In this document: positions 2,816-37,597 of the stretch, piece after piece | How the letters are laid out: every line of letters starts with the position of its first letter | How positions within the stretch are numbered: the stretch's first letter is position 1 | IMG/VR virus record: IMGVR_UViG_3300023174_000361 | Coordinates: 1 to 37,597 of that record | Direction: 5' to 3' (one strand) | Source: a virus | DNA length: 37,597 bases | Position numbers and translations under genes: made by a program | Notes under the pieces: generated by a model | What the model saw: the letters and a program-made list of their open reading frames with translations, nothing else | Database searches by the model: none | What the model was told of the DNA's origin: nothing

Positions 2816-5800
2816 TTATGATATTAATTGAGATCGTCCGTTATCCTTTACAATAAATAGTTCTTTTGATACATAATCTTTAACAACATCTAAATGAGAT
2901 ATACATAATATGAATCTAAAATATGATGTTAGCTCTTCCAAGAATAATCCTACATTTGCTATGTTATCAGAATCTAGCACACCAAAACCTTCATCTATAA
3001 AAAAGAAATCAGGCTTAGGCAAGACAGTAACATGATTTAAGGCTGCTCTTATTGCTAACGAAGATATAAATCTTTCCATCCCGGAAGCTAGTGATAGAGG
3101 CCATTTTGTACCATTAGTGTAGCAAATAAACACTTCCAAAGTTTTATCAGATAACTCAAATTGAACATTAAAAGAAGCCACATTTTTTAAAGCGTCATTA
3201 ACAACATTCTCTAGTATAGGTAAATAGTTTTTTATTATATACAAAGGAACTCCGTCTCTTCTTGTAGCTTTCTCAAAGACAAAATAATTATTATAAGTAA
3301 CAGTAGCGTCTTTGTGATTTTTTATATTTTCTTTTGTTTCTTTTATCCTTAATTCCGTATTTTCTATTGTATTCTTGTGACCTCCTATAGAATAAGCTAG
3401 TTGATATATTTTGCTATCAATTTCTTTCTTTTGTTTCTCTAAATCAAAAATATCAGATTCTATTTGACTGTTTTTGATTTCAACATCTTTATACTTGTCT
3501 TGATTTTCTAATTTTTGTGCATAATCAGATAGTAAATTATTTGACAAATCTATTTTTTCTTTTACGACATTTGCGGAATTTTCTAAATTACTTAGGTTTG
3601 ATTTTAGTGTATCTATTTCGCTTTTTGCGTTAACATGCTTTTTATAATTAGAATCTAAAATTTCATAGGACTTTATCTCTTCTAAAATGGAATTCTTAGT
3701 ATTTTGTAGATTACTTAAATTTTCTTTAAGTGATGGTAGTTGTTTTTTTGCTAATTCTCCATCTAATGCGTACTTATTATTTTTAACGCAATAAGAACAG
3801 TTGGGGTCGTATTCATAATCTTTTAAGTAAGCTATCAATTTATCTTTAGCTTTGATATCTAAATCAAGTGCAGTAATATCTTTTTCAATTTTTTGTAAGT
3901 TAATTCTAGTGCTTGATAAAATATCGGAAACATCTTCAACAATACCCATAGATTCTAAATCGGATAATTTATTTTTAAGCACATTTCTAGCCTCTAGGAA
4001 AGACTTTCTCTTATCATCTAGTATTGATTTATAGTTATTGTTGTTTCGTGTCTCCTCTTCGATTTTTGTGGCATAGTTAATATTATCTTTCGGATATGAT
4101 ATTATGCCTTTTCTTTTTTCATCTATTGCCCCTGTTAGTATTTCTAATTCAATTTTAGTGGACGCAAGACTTTTTTCTAAGTCTTGTAGTTTTACTTTTT
4201 CTTCAGCATAATTATTTTGTAGTTCTGTGAGTTTTTCGTTATACTTTTGTTTTTGATGAGACTCAATTTCGTATTTTAATTGTTTTAATTTTTCTTTAGA
4301 AGTGTCATTCAACTTTTCAAAAATATCAATATCAAAATACTTGTACAGTAAATCCTTTTTATCCTTTTGTGTTTTGTCAATGAAATCAGATTTATTATGT
4401 TGATCATACATTGTTATAAGCATGAAATTCTCATAACTTCCTAAGTATTTTCTAATATTATCATTTGTTTCATATCTTTGTTCTCCATTTAATGAGGTTC
4501 CGTCCTCCTTATAAAAATTAACAGTTACTTTAACTTTACCGTCTTTTCCTTTTTTACCATGTCGTTCAATAAAATAAGATTCTCCTGCTACAGAAAACTC
4601 TAATTTAGAAGAAAAAAATGTAGAAGATGTATTTAAAACTTCTGCTCCGGAGCTAGTTTTACTACATTTATCAAAGATGCAATAAGTCATAGCGTCTAGT
4701 AATGTTGATTTACCGGATGCATTAGGAGAAAATAATCCAACTAATCCTCCTAATTCTCCTAAATTAAATGTGTTATTTTCGCCGTAAGAAAACATATTAG
4801 AAAAGAAAAATCTAAGAGGTTTCCATGTTACGCCTATAAATTCGGAAGCATCTTCTATTTCTAGCGAAGCATTTCTATGAATATCTAGAAATTTATCTTT
4901 TTGATATTCTTGCTTTAGTACGTCTTCTATATAATTTTCTAGTATAATTTGTCTTCTATCAAAATCTCTAATACTGCTTTCTTTTTCTAAATCTACATGC
5001 TCTTTTCCGGAATCAATTATAAATTTTGTTATTTTTGGTTTTTTTATTCTAAGTACGTTATATCTTTTTTCTAGTTCCAAGCAAAAAGAATCAATAAAAT
5101 CTTGAGTACAATTTTCCGCGGTGATAGCAACATTAAGATTATAAGGTAAATCTCCAGGTATTTTTTCAGCTACTTTATCATTCTTCAATTTAAATGTGTA
5201 GAATCCATGAGATGATGCTATTTTAATGAATTCACTTTTTTTAGCATTTAAGTCCCATTCTATAATTCCATGATTTAAGTCTTCTCCGAAATTTTGTTGA
5301 ATGAGACTTGATGGATATGCAGCTGTTTTTTCTAAGTTTAAATATTGATGTTTATGAATGTCTCCTAATAAAATATAATCATAATCTTCATGTTCTAATA
5401 CATCTAAATAATTTCCTTCTAATAAATATCCGTATGCAGTAGCTGAATTTTTGACCGGTCCATGATATAGTAATATTTTTGTTCCATCATGTTTTATAGA
5501 TTTTGCGGGGATTACATTATCAATTTTATCTTTAACATGTAATAAACTAAATGCTATTTGTTCATATTGATATACATTTGTCTTATTTAAAAAATATAAT
5601 GTAGGTAAATTTAAACTGTTTATGATGGGAGTTAATGCATCTAATCTTGTTTTATTATTTAGATTTAAGTCATGATTTCCTAATATTACTATGGTAGGAA
5701 GCATGTTACATAATGTAGATAATAGATTAGATACTACTGAGAATAATTCTGGAGACATGTTTGTTTTTGAATGTACTATATCCCCGCCCAAAAATATAAT

Positions 5801-5950
5801 GGAATTAGGCGTCATTCTCTCCTCAATGATTTTATACAATTTATCAAAAACTTCTATGTATTCCTCATGCCTTTGATAATTATAAACATGAATGTCTGAA
5901 ATATGAAAAATTTTATCAACTCTATTTCCTGTATTTTTTAATAAAATCAT
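2816..5950 (-). CDS. Single-chain Mre11-Rad50 (SbcD-SbcC, T4 gp47-gp46-like) recombination nuclease
   Basis: This 1044-residue protein carries both subunits of the end-processing nuclease normally made from two genes. Residues 1-300 are a Mre11/SbcD metallophosphoesterase with all expected metal ligands: D19/H21 in SDIH, G56-D57, GNHD at 91-94, H163 in YHGP, and GDIHKH at 196-201. Residues about 376-470 hold the Rad50 N-lobe with Walker A SPNASGKST (408-416). Two long coiled coils flank a zinc hook, C718-S-Y-C721. The C-lobe has an ABC signature near 954-960 (LASGMERF), Walker B with D986-E987 (FFFIDEGF) and an H-loop (CISH). In T4 the gp46/gp47 complex resects DNA ends for recombination-dependent replication. 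The start overlaps the primase stop by four bases, so translation is probably coupled. Domain calls are secure; the consequences of fusion are inferred. Confidence 0.96.
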   Translation of the reverse strand: MILLKNTGNRVDKIFHISDIHVYNYQRHEEYIEVFDKLYKIIEERMTPNSIIFLGGDIVHSKTNMSPELFSVVSNLLSTLCNMLPTIVILGNHDLNLNNKTRLDALTPIINSLNLPTLYFLNKTNVYQYEQIAFSLLHVKDKIDNVIPAKSIKHDGTKILLYHGPVKNSATAYGYLLEGNYLDVLEHEDYDYILLGDIHKHQYLNLEKTAAYPSSLIQQNFGEDLNHGIIEWDLNAKKSEFIKIASSHGFYTFKLKNDKVAEKIPGDLPYNLNVAITAENCTQDFIDSFCLELEKRYNVLRIKKPKITKFIIDSGKEHVDLEKESSIRDFDRRQIILENYIEDVLKQEYQKDKFLDIHRNASLEIEDASEFIGVTWKPLRFFFSNMFSYGENNTFNLGELGGLVGLFSPNASGKSTLLDAMTYCIFDKCSKTSSGAEVLNTSSTFFSSKLEFSVAGESYFIERHGKKGKDGKVKVTVNFYKEDGTSLNGEQRYETNDNIRKYLGSYENFMLITMYDQHNKSDFIDKTQKDKKDLLYKYFDIDIFEKLNDTSKEKLKQLKYEIESHQKQKYNEKLTELQNNYAEEKVKLQDLEKSLASTKIELEILTGAIDEKRKGIISYPKDNINYATKIEEETRNNNNYKSILDDKRKSFLEARNVLKNKLSDLESMGIVEDVSDILSSTRINLQKIEKDITALDLDIKAKDKLIAYLKDYEYDPNCSYCVKNNKYALDGELAKKQLPSLKENLSNLQNTKNSILEEIKSYEILDSNYKKHVNAKSEIDTLKSNLSNLENSANVVKEKIDLSNNLLSDYAQKLENQDKYKDVEIKNSQIESDIFDLEKQKKEIDSKIYQLAYSIGGHKNTIENTELRIKETKENIKNHKDATVTYNNYFVFEKATRRDGVPLYIIKNYLPILENVVNDALKNVASFNVQFELSDKTLEVFICYTNGTKWPLSLASGMERFISSLAIRAALNHVTVLPKPDFFFIDEGFGVLDSDNIANVGLFLEELTSYFRFILCISHLDVVKDYVSKELFIVKDNGRSQLIS

Positions 5951-6855
5951 AGTAAATATGTTATTGCCGAATATTCATCAATTTCGACAGATTCATTAAT
6001 AGAATTCCATGTATTTATATAACCAAAATCAGATGGATCTTGAGTTCCGCAATCTACAAATCTAGTTTTTATGCCTAAAGCATTTAATTCTATACAATAC
6101 TTAATTGCTTGTTTTTTCTTATCAGGGTCAATTACAACATATACCATAGGAGTCTCTTCCATTAGTAACCTGTGTTTTAGTTTTTCTGATATAATACTGC
6201 CTGTTAAATATGTTACATTTCTTTTTACCGACAAACTATCAAAAAAACCTTCTACTATAACTAGAGGAAATTTAAAATCTAAAAAAAACTCGTTAATTAT
6301 GATATCATTTATTTTTACCGGAGCACCTAAATATTTGTACATAGACATACCCGTAAAATCTCTACCTTCAAAAAAATTAAGAAAACCATTTTTATCATAA
6401 GAAGGCAGAATTATCCTTCCTGCATATTTTCCTGATAAGCAATATCCTATTTTATGTTTTATTACATCAGACATTGTTAAAGAAGGTTTTTCCCTACGCA
6501 AAAAATTTATAACATCTTTATTAGGCTTACTAGATAGAGAAATATATTCATCTGGCAATTTTAAAATAGATTGATTATCATTTATATTAATATCATCTTT
6601 TATTTTATAATACTCTAATACATTTTTTAATTGATTTATTTGACTACTAGATGCTCCACATTTATGAAATAATGTAGATAAACTACGACCTTTAGTTTCG
6701 CATATCCAACAATGATATTTCTGATTAGTCAAATTAATACTAAGCTTTTTTTTGTGGTGATTACAAAAAGGACAATGGAAAACTGTGTCAAATTTTCCGG
6801 CAGAATCAGAAGAGCCGAGAACTTCCTCTAAAACAGATAATAATCTAAAACGCAT
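5947..6855 (-). CDS. DnaG-type DNA primase (T4 gp61-like role)
   Basis: The 302-residue protein begins with a CHC2-type zinc-binding domain with two CxxC pairs (C28-P-F-C31 and C49-W-I-C52) for template recognition. A primase core follows, with RIILPSYDKNG at 147-157. A TOPRIM fold then supplies the catalytic acidic residues: E202 in VIVEGFFD and D243-P-D245 in VVIDPDKK. It would make RNA primers for lagging-strand synthesis. No helicase domain follows, so it is a stand-alone primase. I chose ATG 6855 because it sits four bases after the resolvase stop with an A-rich leader. An in-frame TTG at 6876 would add seven residues and overlap that gene. The stop overlaps the start of the Mre11-Rad50 fusion. 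Confidence 0.93.
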   Translation of the reverse strand: MRFRLLSVLEEVLGSSDSAGKFDTVFHCPFCNHHKKKLSINLTNQKYHCWICETKGRSLSTLFHKCGASSSQINQLKNVLEYYKIKDDININDNQSILKLPDEYISLSSKPNKDVINFLRREKPSLTMSDVIKHKIGYCLSGKYAGRIILPSYDKNGFLNFFEGRDFTGMSMYKYLGAPVKINDIIINEFFLDFKFPLVIVEGFFDSLSVKRNVTYLTGSIISEKLKHRLLMEETPMVYVVIDPDKKKQAIKYCIELNALGIKTRFVDCGTQDPSDFGYINTWNSINESVEIDEYSAITYLL

Positions 6856-6859
6856 ATAT

Positions 6860-7285
6860 TTATTTTTTTTCTTCAAACCATTGCTTAGGTATAGAATAAG
6901 CAGCCCATTTTATATTATGCTTGTTACACCATTCGGCATATGTAGTTTTTGCACCTTTTGATAATCTAACATGAGGGTCTTGAAATACAATTCTAATGTC
7001 TAAATGAGGATTGCATGATATAATGTCTAACATTTTTTTTCTCTCCTCTAAAGTCCATCTACCCTTAGCTTCTATAATTATATTATTAGGTAACTCAAAA
7101 TCTGCTAGATAAGTTCTAGGTGTTTCTGGTTTTATATATTTTATAACTTTTTTTTCATATAAATCTTTGGGATTAATACCTAATGATCCGGATATTTGAA
7201 GAGCAATAGATTTTTCGAAGTTTGATCTATATCCTTCTTTTTGAGCTAGCCTTGTCTTGAAAGAATTATTAAAAAATCCTGCCAT
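6860..7285 (-). CDS. T7 endonuclease I-type Holliday junction resolvase
   Basis: At 141 residues it is close to the length of T7 gp3 endonuclease I, and the resemblance extends over nearly the whole protein. The PD-(D/E)xK catalytic set is visible: E24, D62 in YLADFELP, and E72/K74 in IIIEAKGRW, followed by ERKK. The C-terminal half has the family-typical LDIRIVFQDP and the TTYAEWCNKHNIKWA segment. These enzymes cleave four-way and branched DNA to resolve recombination intermediates and clean DNA for packaging. T4 itself uses the unrelated endonuclease VII for this, so the gene marks mosaicism. It lies two bases after a virion gene and just before the primase and the Mre11-Rad50 fusion, consistent with a recombination cassette. 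Confidence 0.93.
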   Translation of the reverse strand: MAGFFNNSFKTRLAQKEGYRSNFEKSIALQISGSLGINPKDLYEKKVIKYIKPETPRTYLADFELPNNIIIEAKGRWTLEERKKMLDIISCNPHLDIRIVFQDPHVRLSKGAKTTYAEWCNKHNIKWAAYSIPKQWFEEKK

Positions 7286-17000: not shown

Positions 17001-18660
17001 CTTTTGTCTTTAATAATGTAGGTATATTATTTACTATTCTTCTCCATATTTGATGAGTTAAGTACTCATGTGCTTGAGATGCTAAAGTTCCTGTATCTAA
17101 ATAACTTCCTGTTGAATCTGTACCTATTTTGTATAACCATAAATTACTTAATTGATATCCATTATTTACTTCCCACCCTAAAGATTTAGCATATGTTTTT
17201 AATAACTCGTTTGGTATTCCTCTTTTGGGATGTTCGTCTCTTCTATGAATTGAAGTTAATTCTTTTGTGAAAGCATATAAGTTATCAAAGTGCTGACCTA
17301 TCATATCTAGGAAAACAAAGTATTCGGAATTGTCTTCATTATTTACAATATGTCCCGGAGTAGCTTCATATAATGTGTTGTAATTCCTTCTATCAAATTT
17401 AGATGCTTTTGATAAAGAAGACGAATACCAAAAGTTATATGCAGATGAGGTTATATGATAGTTATAATATTTGTTATTTGATATATACTTAGGAGTTGGT
17501 GTTATACTACCCGTTATATCATAAGAAAATACGCTACCGGAAGAATAGTAAAGATAGTTCTCAAATTCGTCAAAACTATTTTTTACTTGATGGGATCTTT
17601 TTATTATTTTGTTGTAATCTGATATACCAAATAAACTACCTGTATTATTAGTAGATTTTATAGAATTGCTTTGACTTGTGTAAAATTCAATAAGTTGTAG
17701 TTTATAATTATAGTTTTTTAATCTCTCTTGAGCGGACCCATAAAATACAAAATTAGAAAAATCAGAATAATCTATATTTAAAGGTACAGATGCAGAGGAA
17801 GATATAACTCTGTTTATTATTGTATTTGCTGTTTCATATTTAGAATCTAAAAGTGAATCCCAGTAATGATATATATCAGCATCTTTAGCAGGGAGTAAAC
17901 TATTCCAAGAACTATAATTTGTAGATTCTCCGCTCAACGTATTTATAGAATAGTTAGGAGTCAAAGTTCTAGGCTCGCTAACTACTTCAGGGGATGTCGC
18001 GGTAAATGAATCAAAATAGTCCTCTGCTGATTTAAAACATATATGTAAAAGATTTCCTGTTTTTATAACATCGGAAGAACTTAATAATTTTACATATATA
18101 ACATAATCATTATCACAATCTACTTTTATATTTATTATTGAGTATATTTTATTTTCTCCTAAATTTATAACCAAGTTGTTTATAAAACCAATAGTTCTCA
18201 AATAAGAAACTCTAGTTTTAAATATTTGAAGTTTATCTTTTATTACAGGATTATTTTGTAAATATTTAGGTCTAATAGCTAATTTTAATTCTAATCCGTC
18301 AGGGCTAATTTCTTGGATATAAAAATATTGATTATTTATATCTCCAAAAATGTTATATAAAAAATTAAAACATATTTTATATGTTCCTTCATATATTTCT
18401 GAATCAAAAAACAATTTGCATACATCGAAATTTATGTCATCATACGTAGAATCAAAATCATTTCTTACATTATATGCAGATTTTAATAACTCGTAATTTG
18501 AATTATACATATGAGCATCAACAGAAAAAGGACTTTTTATTTCATCTATTATTCCTTTTGATATATCTAAACTCATAAAAGGCTCATAATCAAAAGAAAC
18601 TCCTTCTATTAATGATGAAGACTGTTTTATTCTATCCTTATTTATAAATCTATCTATCAT
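14083..18660 (-). CDS. Giant tail/baseplate protein with P2 gpI-like segment and LamG-like domain
   Basis: This is a 1525-residue protein rich in Ser, Tyr and Asn. Around residues 539-571 is a helical segment, WRRIVNNIPTLLKTKGTERS followed by LKTLLSIYGIP, then ISIKEYGG. It resembles the 'KGT...LL..YG' pattern of P2 gpI-type tail proteins, which link baseplate wedges to fibres. Directly after it, about 597-790, is a jelly-roll-like region starting YLLKFDGNQFVKIPWG. The remaining 700 residues are low-homology, beta-rich sequence with no motif I recognise. Its ATG overlaps the upstream gene's stop (ATGA at 18657-18660), indicating translational coupling to the collagen-like fibre gene. A role as a scaffold joining baseplate and side fibres is inferred from that pairing; the P2 gpI relation is suggestive only. 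Confidence 0.72.
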   Translation of the reverse strand: MIDRFINKDRIKQSSSLIEGVSFDYEPFMSLDISKGIIDEIKSPFSVDAHMYNSNYELLKSAYNVRNDFDSTYDDINFDVCKLFFDSEIYEGTYKICFNFLYNIFGDINNQYFYIQEISPDGLELKLAIRPKYLQNNPVIKDKLQIFKTRVSYLRTIGFINNLVINLGENKIYSIINIKVDCDNDYVIYVKLLSSSDVIKTGNLLHICFKSAEDYFDSFTATSPEVVSEPRTLTPNYSINTLSGESTNYSSWNSLLPAKDADIYHYWDSLLDSKYETANTIINRVISSSASVPLNIDYSDFSNFVFYGSAQERLKNYNYKLQLIEFYTSQSNSIKSTNNTGSLFGISDYNKIIKRSHQVKNSFDEFENYLYYSSGSVFSYDITGSITPTPKYISNNKYYNYHITSSAYNFWYSSSLSKASKFDRRNYNTLYEATPGHIVNNEDNSEYFVFLDMIGQHFDNLYAFTKELTSIHRRDEHPKRGIPNELLKTYAKSLGWEVNNGYQLSNLWLYKIGTDSTGSYLDTGTLASQAHEYLTHQIWRRIVNNIPTLLKTKGTERSLKTLLSIYGIPQTLISIKEYGGSKPPKYTPTHKSYRYQYLLKFDGNQFVKIPWGKSIPPNESELSAPRVSEFRFKTTISSSLSMSLWSIEDSSNSNKVYNNLELVSYRAFSTSSLSGSYSYGFLRYKSAHGISNSTSSFSIKTINSKYYPFFDGDAWNVRIYTDRNINNSNKTGSINIEWKKSSGDFENWISFSGSMIVTASSDISFTWGSTSSLSTPHNIILGGSTGSQYAGTNSSRYKGFLQAYKDYSDLYSEKIFEEHTLNPAAYHGSSYTSSFDTLNRFYPMGVDSLRYDHSSYIFVSSSHPNRNKSQYTTASFRNFSGSQENQYKPFSEIYYSYSPSIGASIPKSDKIRIEESFYTNELSPERRVQINTFDTDPVDSNKLAVVFSPTDQVNRDISNQYGGIDLDNLIGDPSDLYRDEYNNLRLNRENYWKKYRDRNNYNKYIEIFSLYDYSIFEQITQLVPARANLIAGILLEDNLLERSKVARKNPSMTNPQYEKTIIKTDIQSAEYILYTGSINYEIPVDITHTKYSSSIPFDIVQEYEQLKFKTSTEMPPEVELEYIKYGTELPFVLTTDITHEKINTQINYYKDTINLTSSLNSHKVGNKGFLYEFGGESYLYKYENLLDISEMSRDMSNSYNILQNGKLEQIYSTIYYNEYESILDNENSSLHLQNSYNISDKGTLEGIQGNVNLYKSNTTKNDNDITSNVDSLYNFDMNRKLIESHATLIRSSSLIGDVLNSSGSTQESITYRIKRNGVYKNKILDRSKINFYETNVNFISNDFKIDANPYKLENIVGKIMNFNLDNFYNSNSSYTYIVSSSYNNFNTTFTKHQLKEYLYKNEYVVNNAGNIYRNSLYVSQSFIENERENQHYKKVIYHYSASTAVNYSSKYKKDLNLATLISLKNYYSSSLKPTNYQYIEDSVSNRYRFLGCKLTGLDFNVDTTDTIDGGPVVEFREVSPNQIIV

Positions 18661-20720
18661 ATTGCGGTATTCTGATTTGAGCCAACATTTCCATAATTTG
18701 CAAATTCTATTGTATTTCCTGGTATTCCTGACCCGTAAACTCTATCTCCTGATCTATCTGATTCACCACCTTGTCCTCCAGTAGTACCTCCTCCCGTACC
18801 TCCTCCCGTATTTCCTCCTGTACTACCACCACCTCCTACAGGGGGACATTCGAGATTACCTATTTCTATATCGACATTAGTTATTTTTCTAATGCCTAAA
18901 TCTGTTGTTTTGATGGTAAGTACATTGCCTCTGTATTGATAAGATTTAGATGATGTAAGACCTGTAGTTAATGAAGCTATCTGATTTATTGTGTCTATTT
19001 TTTGATATGTAAAAATACTTCCTCCCTGTCCATCACAAGGTTGTAGTTCATATATTGTTACATCAGTACCTCCTTGAGGCCCACCTCCAAATGGAGTTCC
19101 TCCGTCTCCTGAACCAGGACAAGTAACAACACCTGTAATTTTTATAAGAGATGTAAAAACAGATATTCCGTCTATAGTTTTTAAGAATTCGGGGGCTGAC
19201 CCATCCCAGTAATACAATCCTTGATTATTATTATTAAGATAAATTTGATTTTTTACTGGTTCATTTGGTGTATATCCTTGTCCTTTTGCTGGATCGCAAG
19301 AATAAACTTTCCAATATTTATTACCAGTTTCTGTTCCCGTACTTCCGCCTCCTTCATCAGGTCTAATAGTAGTTGTAGTACTTGTTGTGGTACTTGTTGT
19401 AGTTGTAGTACTTGTTGTCGTGCTAGTAGAAGTACTTGTGGTTGTTGTATCCTTAGGGCAATCAGGGCAAACTCCATCTCTTCCATTTATACCGTTAGTT
19501 CCTGGATTTCCGGGAATTCCATCTCTACCATTTATACCATTAGTTCCGGGATTTCCATTTATACCATTAGTTCCAGGATTTCCGTCTCTTCCGTTTGTTC
19601 CATTAATTCCAGGTGTTCCGTCTTTACCTGCGGCTCCATCTTTACCATCTTTACCATCTTTGCCGGCGGGTCCTGGAAGCCCGGCTGGTCCTGGAGAGCC
19701 TAAACCTAAAGAACCTGCTGTTAAATCTTTTCCGTCTTTTCCGTCCTTTCCATTTTTTCCATCCGATCCGCTTACAATTATTACAATAGGCTCTTTATCT
19801 TCACAACAATTAGATGGTATGTTGTTTATAATTGGTACTACAGGGTCAATAATATTTCTAACTTTTTTACGTACAGCAGGAGTCCAAGAAGATGATAACT
19901 CAATGCAATTACCATTATTATTAGTGTTTATAAAATAATAAGTATAACCTTCTAGTGGTCTAGCTCCTATTTCTGCTATTTTTATGAATGTACCTAAAGG
20001 ATAAGTACTCAATTCGGAAAAATCAACTCTTTCAATAGTTATTACATCATCATAAGTTTTACCCCTTTCAAACATCATCACCTCCAAAGTCTCGTTATTA
20101 GGAATTAAACATACTGCTATATCCGTTAACGCTTGATTATTTTCACTGATAAAGTAATTAAAATTTGCATCAATAACTTTAGATAATATAAAATCAGAAA
20201 TTAAAGTTTTTTCAGGTCTTATAAAATAATATCCAGGATCTACGGATAAATTAGAACCATCTAATTTGTAATTTATTGAAACATATTTAATTCCTTTTAA
20301 ATTTACTTTTAATTTTGGTTTATTTGCTTTATTAATTTCTTCTGTAGAGTATTTGTTTTTATTTTGTCCTTCTATATCAAGTATTCTTTCATTTATAGTT
20401 CCAAAAATAACTTTTTCAATATTTCCTTCATACCTTCTTACTATTTTATATTTTATAAACTGACTATTAGAAATATCTAAATTATTATCATTTGAAGGGA
20501 GTGGAATGGTTATATCTAATTTATTGCTTAAATCTAAAGCGTCGCCTATTTTTATTAATTCTTTTGACTCTGCTGTAGTAAATCTACCTGACATATATTT
20601 ACCGTAGCTGTCAATATGATACTGGCCTTTATAAACATCGCCATTCAGATAAGTAAATTCACCATCAGATAAATTTGCTCCGCTTCTTAAATTATTTGGG
20701 TCTGATAGTTTATGTACCAT
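18657..20720 (-). CDS. Collagen-like fibre protein with Thr/Ser-rich stalk and Cys-paired C-terminal repeats
   Basis: The 687-residue protein starts with a beta-rich head (residues 1-315) containing GEFTYLNGDVYKGQYHIDSY, probably the virion attachment part. Residues about 316-418 are classic collagen-like Gly-X-Y (DGKNGKDGKDGKD, GPAGLPGPAGKDG, GTNGINGRDG). A CPDCP knot and a run of about 30 Thr/Ser residues (about 424-455) follow. The C-terminal 220 residues hold two repeats, each bounded by cysteines (YSCDP to VTCPG, and LQPCDG to LECPP), separated and followed by Gly-rich linkers. It reads as a trimeric rod with small distal domains. The Thr/Ser stalk could be O-glycosylated by a Bacteroidetes host. 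The stop overlaps the start of the 1525-residue gene. Confidence 0.82.
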   Translation of the reverse strand: MVHKLSDPNNLRSGANLSDGEFTYLNGDVYKGQYHIDSYGKYMSGRFTTAESKELIKIGDALDLSNKLDITIPLPSNDNNLDISNSQFIKYKIVRRYEGNIEKVIFGTINERILDIEGQNKNKYSTEEINKANKPKLKVNLKGIKYVSINYKLDGSNLSVDPGYYFIRPEKTLISDFILSKVIDANFNYFISENNQALTDIAVCLIPNNETLEVMMFERGKTYDDVITIERVDFSELSTYPLGTFIKIAEIGARPLEGYTYYFINTNNNGNCIELSSSWTPAVRKKVRNIIDPVVPIINNIPSNCCEDKEPIVIIVSGSDGKNGKDGKDGKDLTAGSLGLGSPGPAGLPGPAGKDGKDGKDGAAGKDGTPGINGTNGRDGNPGTNGINGNPGTNGINGRDGIPGNPGTNGINGRDGVCPDCPKDTTTTSTSTSTTTSTTTTTSTTTSTTTTIRPDEGGGSTGTETGNKYWKVYSCDPAKGQGYTPNEPVKNQIYLNNNNQGLYYWDGSAPEFLKTIDGISVFTSLIKITGVVTCPGSGDGGTPFGGGPQGGTDVTIYELQPCDGQGGSIFTYQKIDTINQIASLTTGLTSSKSYQYRGNVLTIKTTDLGIRKITNVDIEIGNLECPPVGGGGSTGGNTGGGTGGGTTGGQGGESDRSGDRVYGSGIPGNTIEFANYGNVGSNQNTAI

Positions 20721-34871: not shown

Positions 34872-34943
34872 TTATAAAATTTATTATTGGCCCTATGGGG
34901 AAGTGGGTTCTTAGGAGTTACCAACCATAATAAAAAATTAAAA

Positions 34944-35561
34944 ATGGATTATATAAAATTATACAATAGGTTATGTATATCAAGAAAATTATTAAATAGA
35001 AGCAAGAAAGAGGGCACATATTATGAAGCCCATCATATCCAACCTAGATCTTTGGGTGGTAATAATTCAAAATTAAATATAGTACTATTAACACCTAAAG
35101 AACATTATATAGCTCATTTATTATTATATAAACATTTTGGTAAAGTAGGAGGAGAGTATTTTAGAAAAATGTCTTTTGCTTTACTAAGTATGAGTAGTAC
35201 TAATAAAAATTATAAGAGAGACGGACTAGTAAATTCTAATTCTTATTCTTATTTTAGAGAATCTGCTATAAATATGACTTTAGGTCGTAAAATAGTAGAT
35301 ACAACAGCATATAAAAAACCTAAATCCGATATCCATAAAAATAATATAAGATTAGCAAGATTAACATCCCCCCCAAGAGACGAAAAAACAAGAGATAAAA
35401 TGAAACAATCCGCAATAAATAGAGTTCTAAAATTAAATGGTGCCTTTAATAATCATATAAAATCTACTTGTCCTATTTGTGAAAAAGAGGGGCAAAGAAA
35501 CGCAATGTTAAGATGGCATTTTAATAACTGTAAAATAAAAAAGGAGGTGACAAATGCCTAA
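34944..35561 (+). CDS. HNH homing endonuclease
   Basis: The 205-residue protein has an N-terminal HNH nuclease (residues 8-65: YYEAHHIQPRSLGGNNSKLN, then VLLTPKEHYIAHLLL) with H30/H31 and H54 as likely catalytic and metal residues. A NUMOD3-like basic helical stretch follows (IHKNNIRLARLTSPPRDEKT). It ends in a zinc finger with C176-P-I-C179, H192 and C196. This architecture is typical of free-standing phage homing endonucleases, which cut intronless alleles and spread their gene. I start at ATG 34944; an in-frame TTG at 34887 would add 19 residues, translated from an unusually GC-rich leader. It sits between fibre genes and overlaps the next one by eight bases. No intron is seen. Confidence 0.88.
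   Translation: MDYIKLYNRLCISRKLLNRSKKEGTYYEAHHIQPRSLGGNNSKLNIVLLTPKEHYIAHLLLYKHFGKVGGEYFRKMSFALLSMSSTNKNYKRDGLVNSNSYSYFRESAINMTLGRKIVDTTAYKKPKSDIHKNNIRLARLTSPPRDEKTRDKMKQSAINRVLKLNGAFNNHIKSTCPICEKEGQRNAMLRWHFNNCKIKKEVTNA
35541..35550 (+). promoter_or_regulatory. Strong Shine-Dalgarno site within the homing endonuclease gene
   Basis: AAGGAGGTGA is a near-perfect anti-16S match placed 3 bases before ATG 35554 (the GGAGG core is 6 bases away). Other starts I inspected in the window have only A-rich leaders. It lies in the last codons of the HNH gene and probably came with it. Confidence 0.7.
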
Positions 35562-37597
35562 TTGGCGTAAATTAATAGTAAGTGGCTCAAATGCAGAGCT
35601 TAATTCATTAAAAATATCGACCTCTTTAACAGCAAGTGGTCTACATTATCCTACATTAGATGGATTTTCAGGTCAGGTTCTCGGAACAGATGGTTTAGGG
35701 AATTTGGCATTTACAAGTATTTCTACAGTAACTGAAAAGGTAAAAAACGTATCAGGACATACTCTATATAAAGGTACTCCCGTTCATGCTACAGGGTCAG
35801 GAACTATGGGCAATATTGTTGGAGTAATACCTGCGAGTGCATCATTGGCTTCAAGTATGCCTGCAACCTTTATATTAGGAGAAACATTAGCAGATCAAGC
35901 CGAAGGTATAGGTATTATATCAGGACTAATACAAGGAGTTAATACTTCTGCATTTCAAAATGGAGAAGTTATATATGTAGGTACAAATGGAGGATATACG
36001 AATTCTCCTCCCACAGGTTCAAATCTAATTCAAAATTTAGGTATTGTAACTAAAATACATCCTACAAACGGAGCGGGTATTGTATTAGGAGCAGGTAGAT
36101 CAAATGCAACTCCAAATCTTTTAAATGGCAGAATATTTTATGGAACTAATAATAGATCTGTAGCAAGACCTTTAGCAGATATTATATCAGGTAGTATATT
36201 TTCATATACAGGTTCATTTTCGGGTGATGGAAGTAATTTAACAAATATAACAGTATCTCAAGTAGCTACAGTAACTGCTTCATTTGCATCAACGTCATCT
36301 ATTACTGTACAACATAATTTCAATTCTAAAAATGTTATAGTATCTGCGTATGATAATTCCGATTACTACTTCGTACCTGAAACTATAAATCTACTTGATA
36401 ATAATAGAGTAAAACTAACATTTTCTAATCCATCCACAGGACATGTTGTAGTTGCAAAAGGTGGTCATGCAATAAATGTTAGTGTACCTCAAGTAGCAAC
36501 AGTTACTGCATCATTTGTTGCTACATCTTCTTTAATTGTAAATCATAATTTTAATTCAAGAAATATTATAGTATCTGCATATGATTCATCTAATTTTTAT
36601 TTTATTCCACAAAGTTTAAGATTGATTGATGATAATAATGTTAGATTAACTTTTACGAGTCCATCTACGGGACATGTTGTTGTTGCCAAGGGAGGTCATT
36701 TGGTTAGTGGTAGTATTTTGTGGAATAATGTTATGAATAAGCCATTAGGTATTATAAGCTCGTCAGCTCAACTTTCTAATACGACAATACCAGGAAACTT
36801 AACAATAACAGGAAAGCTTACGGCAGAAGAATATTATACAGAGTTTGTAAGTGCGTCTATTATATATGAATCAGGATCTACCAAGTTTGGAAACAGTGCT
36901 GATGATAGGCATCAATTTACAGGTTCACTTAGTGTTCAAGGCACAGGTTCGATGAGACATCTTCTTCCGCAATCAGATAATTTATATGATTTAGGAAGTA
37001 ATACTAAAAGATGGAGAGATTTATACTTAGTTAGCTCTTCTATATATTTAGGAAAAACAAAAATATCTTCTGATAGTAATGGGTCAATATCTTTTACAAA
37101 TGTTAATAATCCGAGTCAAAAAGTAGTAGGTTCTTATTCAGGTTCATTCACAGGAAGTATAAAATTACCTACGGTACCACAAGGAGCAGCAGAAACAAAT
37201 ATACTTCTCGTAAATGGTAGTGGGAATATAGTATACAGAAATAACTTATCATTAACAGGAGCACAAGGAAACCAAGGCATTCAAGGAATTCAAGGAACAG
37301 TAGGTACTCAAGGTTTCCAAGGCAATCAAGGCCCACAGGGTAATCAAGGACCTACCGGAATACAAGGTACAGCAGGAACAAACGGAAACCAGGGTAATCA
37401 AGGACCTCAAGGTATTCAAGGAACAGTAGGTACTCAAGGTTTCCAAGGCAACCAAGGACCACAGGGAAACCAAGGACCTACCGGAATACAAGGTACAGCA
37501 GGAACAAACGGAAACCAGGGTAATCAAGGACCTCAAGGTATTCAAGGAACAGTAGGTACTCAAGGTTTCCAAGGCAACCAAGGACCACAGGGAAACC
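35554..37597 (+). CDS. Large collagen-like adhesin / tail fibre (partial, C-terminus beyond window)
   Basis: The 681 codons are open to the right edge. The N-terminus PNWRKLIVSGSNAELNSLK is the attachment motif shared with the 33695 protein. Beta-rich modules follow, including FSYTGSFSGDGSNLTNI and two tandem copies of a module ending STGHVVVAKGGH (about residues 245-310 and 311-385). This module is a distant relative of the YPVFTIYD module in the S74 fibre. Residues about 420-520 have the environmental-phage fibre pattern MNKPLGIISSSAQL, ASIIYESGSTKFGNSADDRH and YDLGSNTKRWRDLYLVSSS. From residue 568 a Gly-X-Y array ([16 protein letters not shown]) runs to the edge. A long host-recognition fibre is likely. 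Confidence 0.82.
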   Translation, partial: MPNWRKLIVSGSNAELNSLKISTSLTASGLHYPTLDGFSGQVLGTDGLGNLAFTSISTVTEKVKNVSGHTLYKGTPVHATGSGTMGNIVGVIPASASLASSMPATFILGETLADQAEGIGIISGLIQGVNTSAFQNGEVIYVGTNGGYTNSPPTGSNLIQNLGIVTKIHPTNGAGIVLGAGRSNATPNLLNGRIFYGTNNRSVARPLADIISGSIFSYTGSFSGDGSNLTNITVSQVATVTASFASTSSITVQHNFNSKNVIVSAYDNSDYYFVPETINLLDNNRVKLTFSNPSTGHVVVAKGGHAINVSVPQVATVTASFVATSSLIVNHNFNSRNIIVSAYDSSNFYFIPQSLRLIDDNNVRLTFTSPSTGHVVVAKGGHLVSGSILWNNVMNKPLGIISSSAQLSNTTIPGNLTITGKLTAEEYYTEFVSASIIYESGSTKFGNSADDRHQFTGSLSVQGTGSMRHLLPQSDNLYDLGSNTKRWRDLYLVSSSIYLGKTKISSDSNGSISFTNVNNPSQKVVGSYSGSFTGSIKLPTVPQGAAETNILLVNGSGNIVYRNNLSLTGAQGNQGIQGIQGTVGTQGFQGNQGPQGNQGPTGIQGTAGTNGNQGNQGPQGIQGTVGTQGFQGNQGPQGNQGPTGIQGTAGTNGNQGNQGPQGIQGTVGTQGFQGNQGPQGN
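37258..37597 (+). repeat. Gly-X-Y (collagen-like) coding repeat array, right edge
   Basis: The array has a 126-base period (14 Gly-X-Y triplets). The element GGAACAGTAGGTACTCAAGG starts at 37294, 37420 and 37546, and the last two copies are almost identical. It resembles the left-edge array at the DNA level when that array is read on its coding strand. Confidence 0.85.

Follow-up and report, generated by a model that had tools for sequence, protein, structure and literature searches.

Introduction

The closest known counterparts of the gene analysed here are single polypeptides in which Mre11 is joined to Rad50. In 2011 Yoshida, Claverie and Ogata published such fusions in Mimivirus (R555) and in twelve other cases, with Bacillus phage 0305phi8-36, plasmids, bacteria and eukaryotes among the carriers (PMC3175470). 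R555-like homologues were abundant in the environment and many were argued to be phage genes; aquatic GOS scaffolds carrying them also held phage primases and T7 gp3-type endonucleases, and the fusion itself was confirmed only in a few long environmental scaffolds. R555 has a GDxxH motif and an Asp replacing H206 of Pyrococcus Mre11. The same study argued that fusion guarantees equal amounts and co-transfer of both parts, used the Thermotoga complex to work out that a joint of 9-12 residues is enough, and cites the Mre11-Rad50 structures from which the function of the Mre11 helix-loop-helix is known (PMC3175470). T4 gp47/gp46 and bacterial SbcD/SbcC are the same two enzymes with the same fold, but are made as separate chains and not, as here, from a single frame.

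A single phage frame encodes Mre11 and Rad50

The window is the whole stretch of DNA that we analysed, 37,597 nucleotides of IMG/VR virus record IMGVR_UViG_3300023174_000361. It encodes baseplate wedge and tail-fibre proteins, and the virus is therefore a tailed phage with a baseplate of the contractile-tail type. On the minus strand, positions 2816-5950 form one ATG-to-TAA frame of 1044 aa without an internal stop, in which an Mre11 domain lies N-terminal to a Rad50 domain. Pfam places Metallophos at residues 13-200 (E 6e-12) and AAA_23 at 385-583 (E 1.5e-15), PHROG_77 (SbcC-like) spans residues 374-1043, and the NCBIfam and PDB matches are SbcC, SbcD and Mre11 relatives. The claim of the initial annotation that SbcD/gp47 and SbcC/gp46 share one uninterrupted frame is thus borne out. 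So long a frame, holding both motif sets in order, is not a chance product, and the sequence supports the reading of 2816-5950 as a true single-chain Mre11-Rad50 fusion with all its working parts. The features are as follows, with the evidence for each.

2816..5950, minus: Mre11-Rad50 fusion gene (single frame, Metallophos plus AAA_23; read-through in 95 loci)
5210..5950, minus: Mre11/SbcD nuclease core, residues 1-247 (Pfam; PDB alignments)
5360..5362, minus: Asp197, at the position of Pyrococcus Mre11 H206 (Asp in 55/55 relatives; aligned with GHIH of T. maritima Mre11)
5036..5209, minus: Mre11 capping domain, residues 248-305 (beta-alpha-beta in the model; PDB SbcD/Mre11 alignments stop at 304-306)
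4964..5035, minus: flexible loop, residues 306-329 (pLDDT < 50 for 305-324)
4865..4963, minus: helix-loop-helix, residues 330-362, likely the Rad50-binding domain of Mre11 (model helices)
4826..4864, minus: covalent joint of ~13 residues, 363-375 (helix-loop-helix ends at 362; Rad50 residue 1 at 376)
4271..4825, minus: Rad50 N-lobe, residues 376-560 (Pfam, alignment of relatives, PDB alignments)
4706-4729, minus: Walker A SPNASGKS, residues 408-415, within the N-lobe
3251..4270, minus: coiled coil with zinc hook (helices in the model)
3788-3799, minus: zinc hook C718-x-x-C721 (both Cys invariant in 55/55 relatives)
2819..3250, minus: Rad50 C-lobe, residues 901-1044, with SGME 956-959, D986-E987 and H1019 (alignment of relatives; PDB alignments)
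5947..6876, minus: DnaG-type primase (PHROG_47; 4-base overlap with the start of the fusion)
6860..7285, minus: T7-type endonuclease I, a Holliday junction resolvase (PF05367, E 1e-34)

The added joint is short

An AlphaFold2 model built with 55 relatives has a mean pLDDT of 82 and a pTM of 0.46, so that the individual domains are reliable and the placement of the nuclease relative to the ATPase is not. Against the PDB, model residues 11-305 align with the SbcD/Mre11 nuclease and capping domain at Z 23-24.5 (S. aureus SbcD 7dog, Z 24.5; T. maritima Mre11 3thn, Z 23.3), and E. coli SbcC 7yzo_D matches with Z 30.0 and an rmsd of 3.8 over 347 residues. Residue 1 of Rad50 aligns at model residue 376.

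The region between these domains had been described as a covalent link of about 75 residues, a description that the model does not sustain. Residues 305-324 are disordered (pLDDT < 50), helices at 330-345 and 351-362 occupy the place of the Rad50-binding helix-loop-helix of Mre11, and only the ~13 residues that follow are an added joint. Judged by their position in the model, the helices of residues 330-362 likely bind Rad50, and most of the supposed linker would then be the known Mre11-Rad50 interface. The joint is close in length to the 9-12 residues calculated by Yoshida et al. Measured against near relatives, with dS near saturation, residues 330-374 give a dN/dS of ~0.11-0.17, which indicates purifying selection across the junction region.

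Conserved motifs and an altered metal ligand

The nuclease motifs of the fusion are D19-x-H21, G56-D57, G91-N92-H93-D94, H163 and G196-D-I-H199, and those of the ATPase are S408-PNASGKS415, C718-x-x-C721, S956-G-M-E959, D986-E987 and H1019. Conservation was counted over the 55 aligned relatives. The Mre11 ligands D19, H21, D57, N92, H163 and H199 are invariant or nearly so, as are G413-K414-S415, C718, C721, S956-G-M-E959, D986-E987 and H1019 on the Rad50 side. The ABC ATPase therefore has its Walker A, signature, Walker B and zinc hook, with Ser/Ala for the first Gly of Walker A. The motif positions named in the initial annotation were correct, and the substitution that it singled out in SPNASGKS is real, but it is not peculiar to this phage: 50 relatives have Ala at the first position of Walker A and 5 have Ser, and the departure from Gly is thus a trait of the family.

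The statement that every catalytic motif is present needs one amendment. Nearly all are there and conserved, and all metallophosphoesterase metal ligands are present save one His, replaced by Asp: the H206 site of Pyrococcus Mre11 (GHxH) is Asp197. This residue and H60 (GDxxH) are invariant across the 55 relatives. With Asp197 in place of one metal ligand, activity of the nuclease cannot be taken for granted, and the invariant Asp is the sole point of some remaining interest. We consider it unlikely that fusion and ligand change together set apart, in aquatic phages and giant viruses alike, a viral Mre11-Rad50 that is distinct as an enzyme, its nuclease altered in specificity or control.

It is also quite unlikely that the Mre11 half has lost catalysis altogether, Asp197 breaking the second metal site and leaving a DNA-end tether and sensor in which Mre11 is structural. 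Invariance of Asp197 across the family, at a site that is His in T4 gp47, Twort and Thermotoga Mre11, is in keeping with such a loss, as is the further loss of the motif I His in the related fusions of pT24, PAU and MA9V-1. Asp, however, is able to bind metal, the remaining ligands listed above are retained, and conservation of the nuclease core is strong (dN/dS ~0.1), all of which weighs against a loss of catalysis.

The arrangement is ordinary for its family

A profile search recovered at least 552 relatives. Relatives are encoded in hundreds of IMG/VR stretches, and those inspected are fused. Among the loci fetched, 95 carry a full-length one-frame fusion (82 distinct proteins), a count that includes Listeria phage LMTA-57, which is likely frameshifted. 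Phages with fusions, isolated or assembled, include Microcystis Mel-JY01, Tenacibaculum pT24/PTm1/PTm5, Sphingomonas PAU, Chryseobacterium MA9V-1 and Thermus phiLo. The novelty that the initial annotation saw in the fusion does not hold, as this kind of protein was published in 2011 (PMC3175470) and nearly all recovered relatives are fused; in substance, most relatives share an arrangement already described. The fusion is a new example of that arrangement, ordinary for its family, and its novelty is accordingly small.

The resemblance to R555-like proteins, which rests on their published description, extends to the single chain and domain order, to GDxxH and the Asp in place of H206 (H60 and D197 here), to a helix-loop-helix followed by a short joint (330-362 and 363-375), and to occurrence in aquatic viruses beside a primase and a T7-type endonuclease. 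R555 is longer (1351 aa versus 1044 aa) and comes from Mimivirus, whereas this copy belongs to a tailed phage that has baseplate genes. The comparison with giant-virus homologues was structural: the top Foldseek matches in BFVD are full-length fusion proteins of Tupanvirus (25% identity), Harvfovirus, Yasminevirus and Catovirus, each aligned over nearly its whole length.

A counterpart in an isolated phage is WWT39521.1 of Microcystis phage Mel-JY01 (1066 aa), which is 34-36% identical over its full length and has all the motifs. Its primase lies two genes upstream, and its upstream endonuclease is of the GIY-YIG type, unlike the endonuclease I found here. This isolated phage with a named host thus carries the fusion under an uninformative name, 'AAA domain containing protein'. 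The jumbo-phage fusions (Tenacibaculum pT24/PTm1, Sphingomonas PAU, Chryseobacterium MA9V-1 and a 735-kb uncultured phage) are also single chains and form a sister group in the tree, but they are ~1200-1330 aa long and only ~15-25% identical to our fusion, and the motif I His is lost in pT24, PAU and MA9V-1.

A maximum-likelihood tree of 34 rows puts 28 fused proteins on one side of a branch (98/89); long branches and the small number of unfused rows leave a single origin of the fusion unproven. PLSDB held no plasmid-borne relatives at E 1e-5. Cellular relatives came to only four contigs, of which one (L108) encodes an ordinary separate SbcC and another (L105, CALBOT010000005.1, from a Candidatus Nitrosopelagicus bin) looks viral, its endonuclease I, primase and fusion genes being ordered as in phages; the latter is probably a phage contig binned with an archaeal metagenome-assembled genome.

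In JAQUPX010000020.1, a contig of a metagenome-assembled genome, the frame (L106:1-150) opens with an apparent intein C-terminal end, VYCLSVLNENLLIRYNGKISISGN with C immediately following; in the Mre11 half this end directly follows the metal-ligand motif GNHD, and the remainder lies beyond the contig end. In the 484-kb phage LR756508.1 (L021:~5600-6650) the fusion gene is broken shortly after the active-site LGDIHKRQ by an insert with an ORF, in a different frame, that is Cys-rich and endonuclease-like. We read this interruption as a group I intron or a split gene; an Rfam search for an intron there gave no match.

Gene neighbourhood and proposed function

Wherever a divergent locus has 1 kb or more of upstream sequence, the primase lies directly upstream of the fusion (75/75), and endonuclease I is also present in 50 of these loci. 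Each of the seven longer related records has a RecA-family gene and a single AAA_23 gene, which is the fusion, with no second AAA_23 gene of the Rad50/SbcC type in any of them; a further metallophosphoesterase, small and separate (236-257 aa), occurs in three. In a 188-kb virus record (G004), the RecA-like protein of 546 aa (L127:82-1722) has a split RecA match, and the insert, with Cys at its start and ...LNHN at its end before Thr, is probably a mini-intein.

The fusion is most likely a single-chain, R555-like Mre11-Rad50 complex of M2R2 form that processes and tethers DNA ends in recombination-dependent replication. We infer its enzymatic activity, stoichiometry and replication role by analogy with T4 gp46/gp47 and SbcCD. 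Two chains would dimerise through ATP-bound Rad50 heads and Mre11 nucleases to give M2R2, and ATP-driven closure of the heads would control access to the nuclease, while the coiled coils and zinc hook would tether DNA. The complex may act on DNA ends, or on branched and hairpin DNA, and so produce 3′ single strands, which would pass to the phage RecA-like recombinase for recombination-dependent replication, as with T4 gp46/gp47. Fusion would then alter the delivery of the parts and not their work, the Rad50-binding helix-loop-helix being kept. In the literature searched we found no expression or biochemistry of any viral Mre11-Rad50 fusion; a natural single chain, Asp197 included, could suit such work on Mre11-Rad50.

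A special role that separate gp46/gp47 lack, for example in host-DNA degradation or counter-defence, might be read from the long coiled coil and the distinct clade, and the Rad50/SMC-like heads match Lamassu and JetABC, but as a general fold only. The neighbours, however, are replication and recombination genes and, with no other Rad50/SbcC-type gene in the longer related records, we hold such a role to be very improbable beside the proposed part in recombination-dependent replication.

The frame is continuous in independent contigs

Frame continuity was judged by agreement among independent contigs. The whole gene is in one frame in 11 other IMG/VR contigs at ~78% identity. Across residues 300-390 the frame is open in all 11, four further partial contigs also cross the junction, and the break that the initial annotation had considered between residues 300 and 380 was found in none. 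More divergent relatives (~80, 35% identity) are likewise fused, and the region that corresponds to residues 304-375 has a length of 70-74 residues in 55/55 aligned relatives. Between residues 296 and 395 the sole start-like codon is ATG386, which lies inside strand 1 of Rad50 and has no Shine-Dalgarno sequence; there is thus no obvious internal start in this interval that would yield a separate Rad50. Artefactual fusions do occur, as in LMTA-57, but with the junction open in 15 further contigs, relatives at 35% identity fused in the same manner and a spacing to the Rad50 start that differs by only 4 residues, we reject a frameshift or assembly error at 2816-5950 as having virtually no chance of being correct.

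LMTA-57 itself (L022:3001-6030) is annotated with one 1009-aa recombination exonuclease. Its region has 3030 bases versus 3031 in near-identical Listeria phages, of which there are ~40-50, nearly all annotated with two genes and P100 with three. Being one base short of its two-gene relatives, it probably contains a frameshift or sequencing error, and we rejected it as a second isolate with the fusion.

Other features of the window

An Rfam search of the window found no RNA families. An HNH homing endonuclease (phrog_655, E 5e-35) is encoded at 34887-35561 on the plus strand, and the tail-fibre protein at 18657-20720 (minus) contains collagen-like Gly-x-y repeats. Antisense-looking ORFs lie at 226-531 and 37252-37581, and a similar repeat-type sequence seems to be present at both contig ends.
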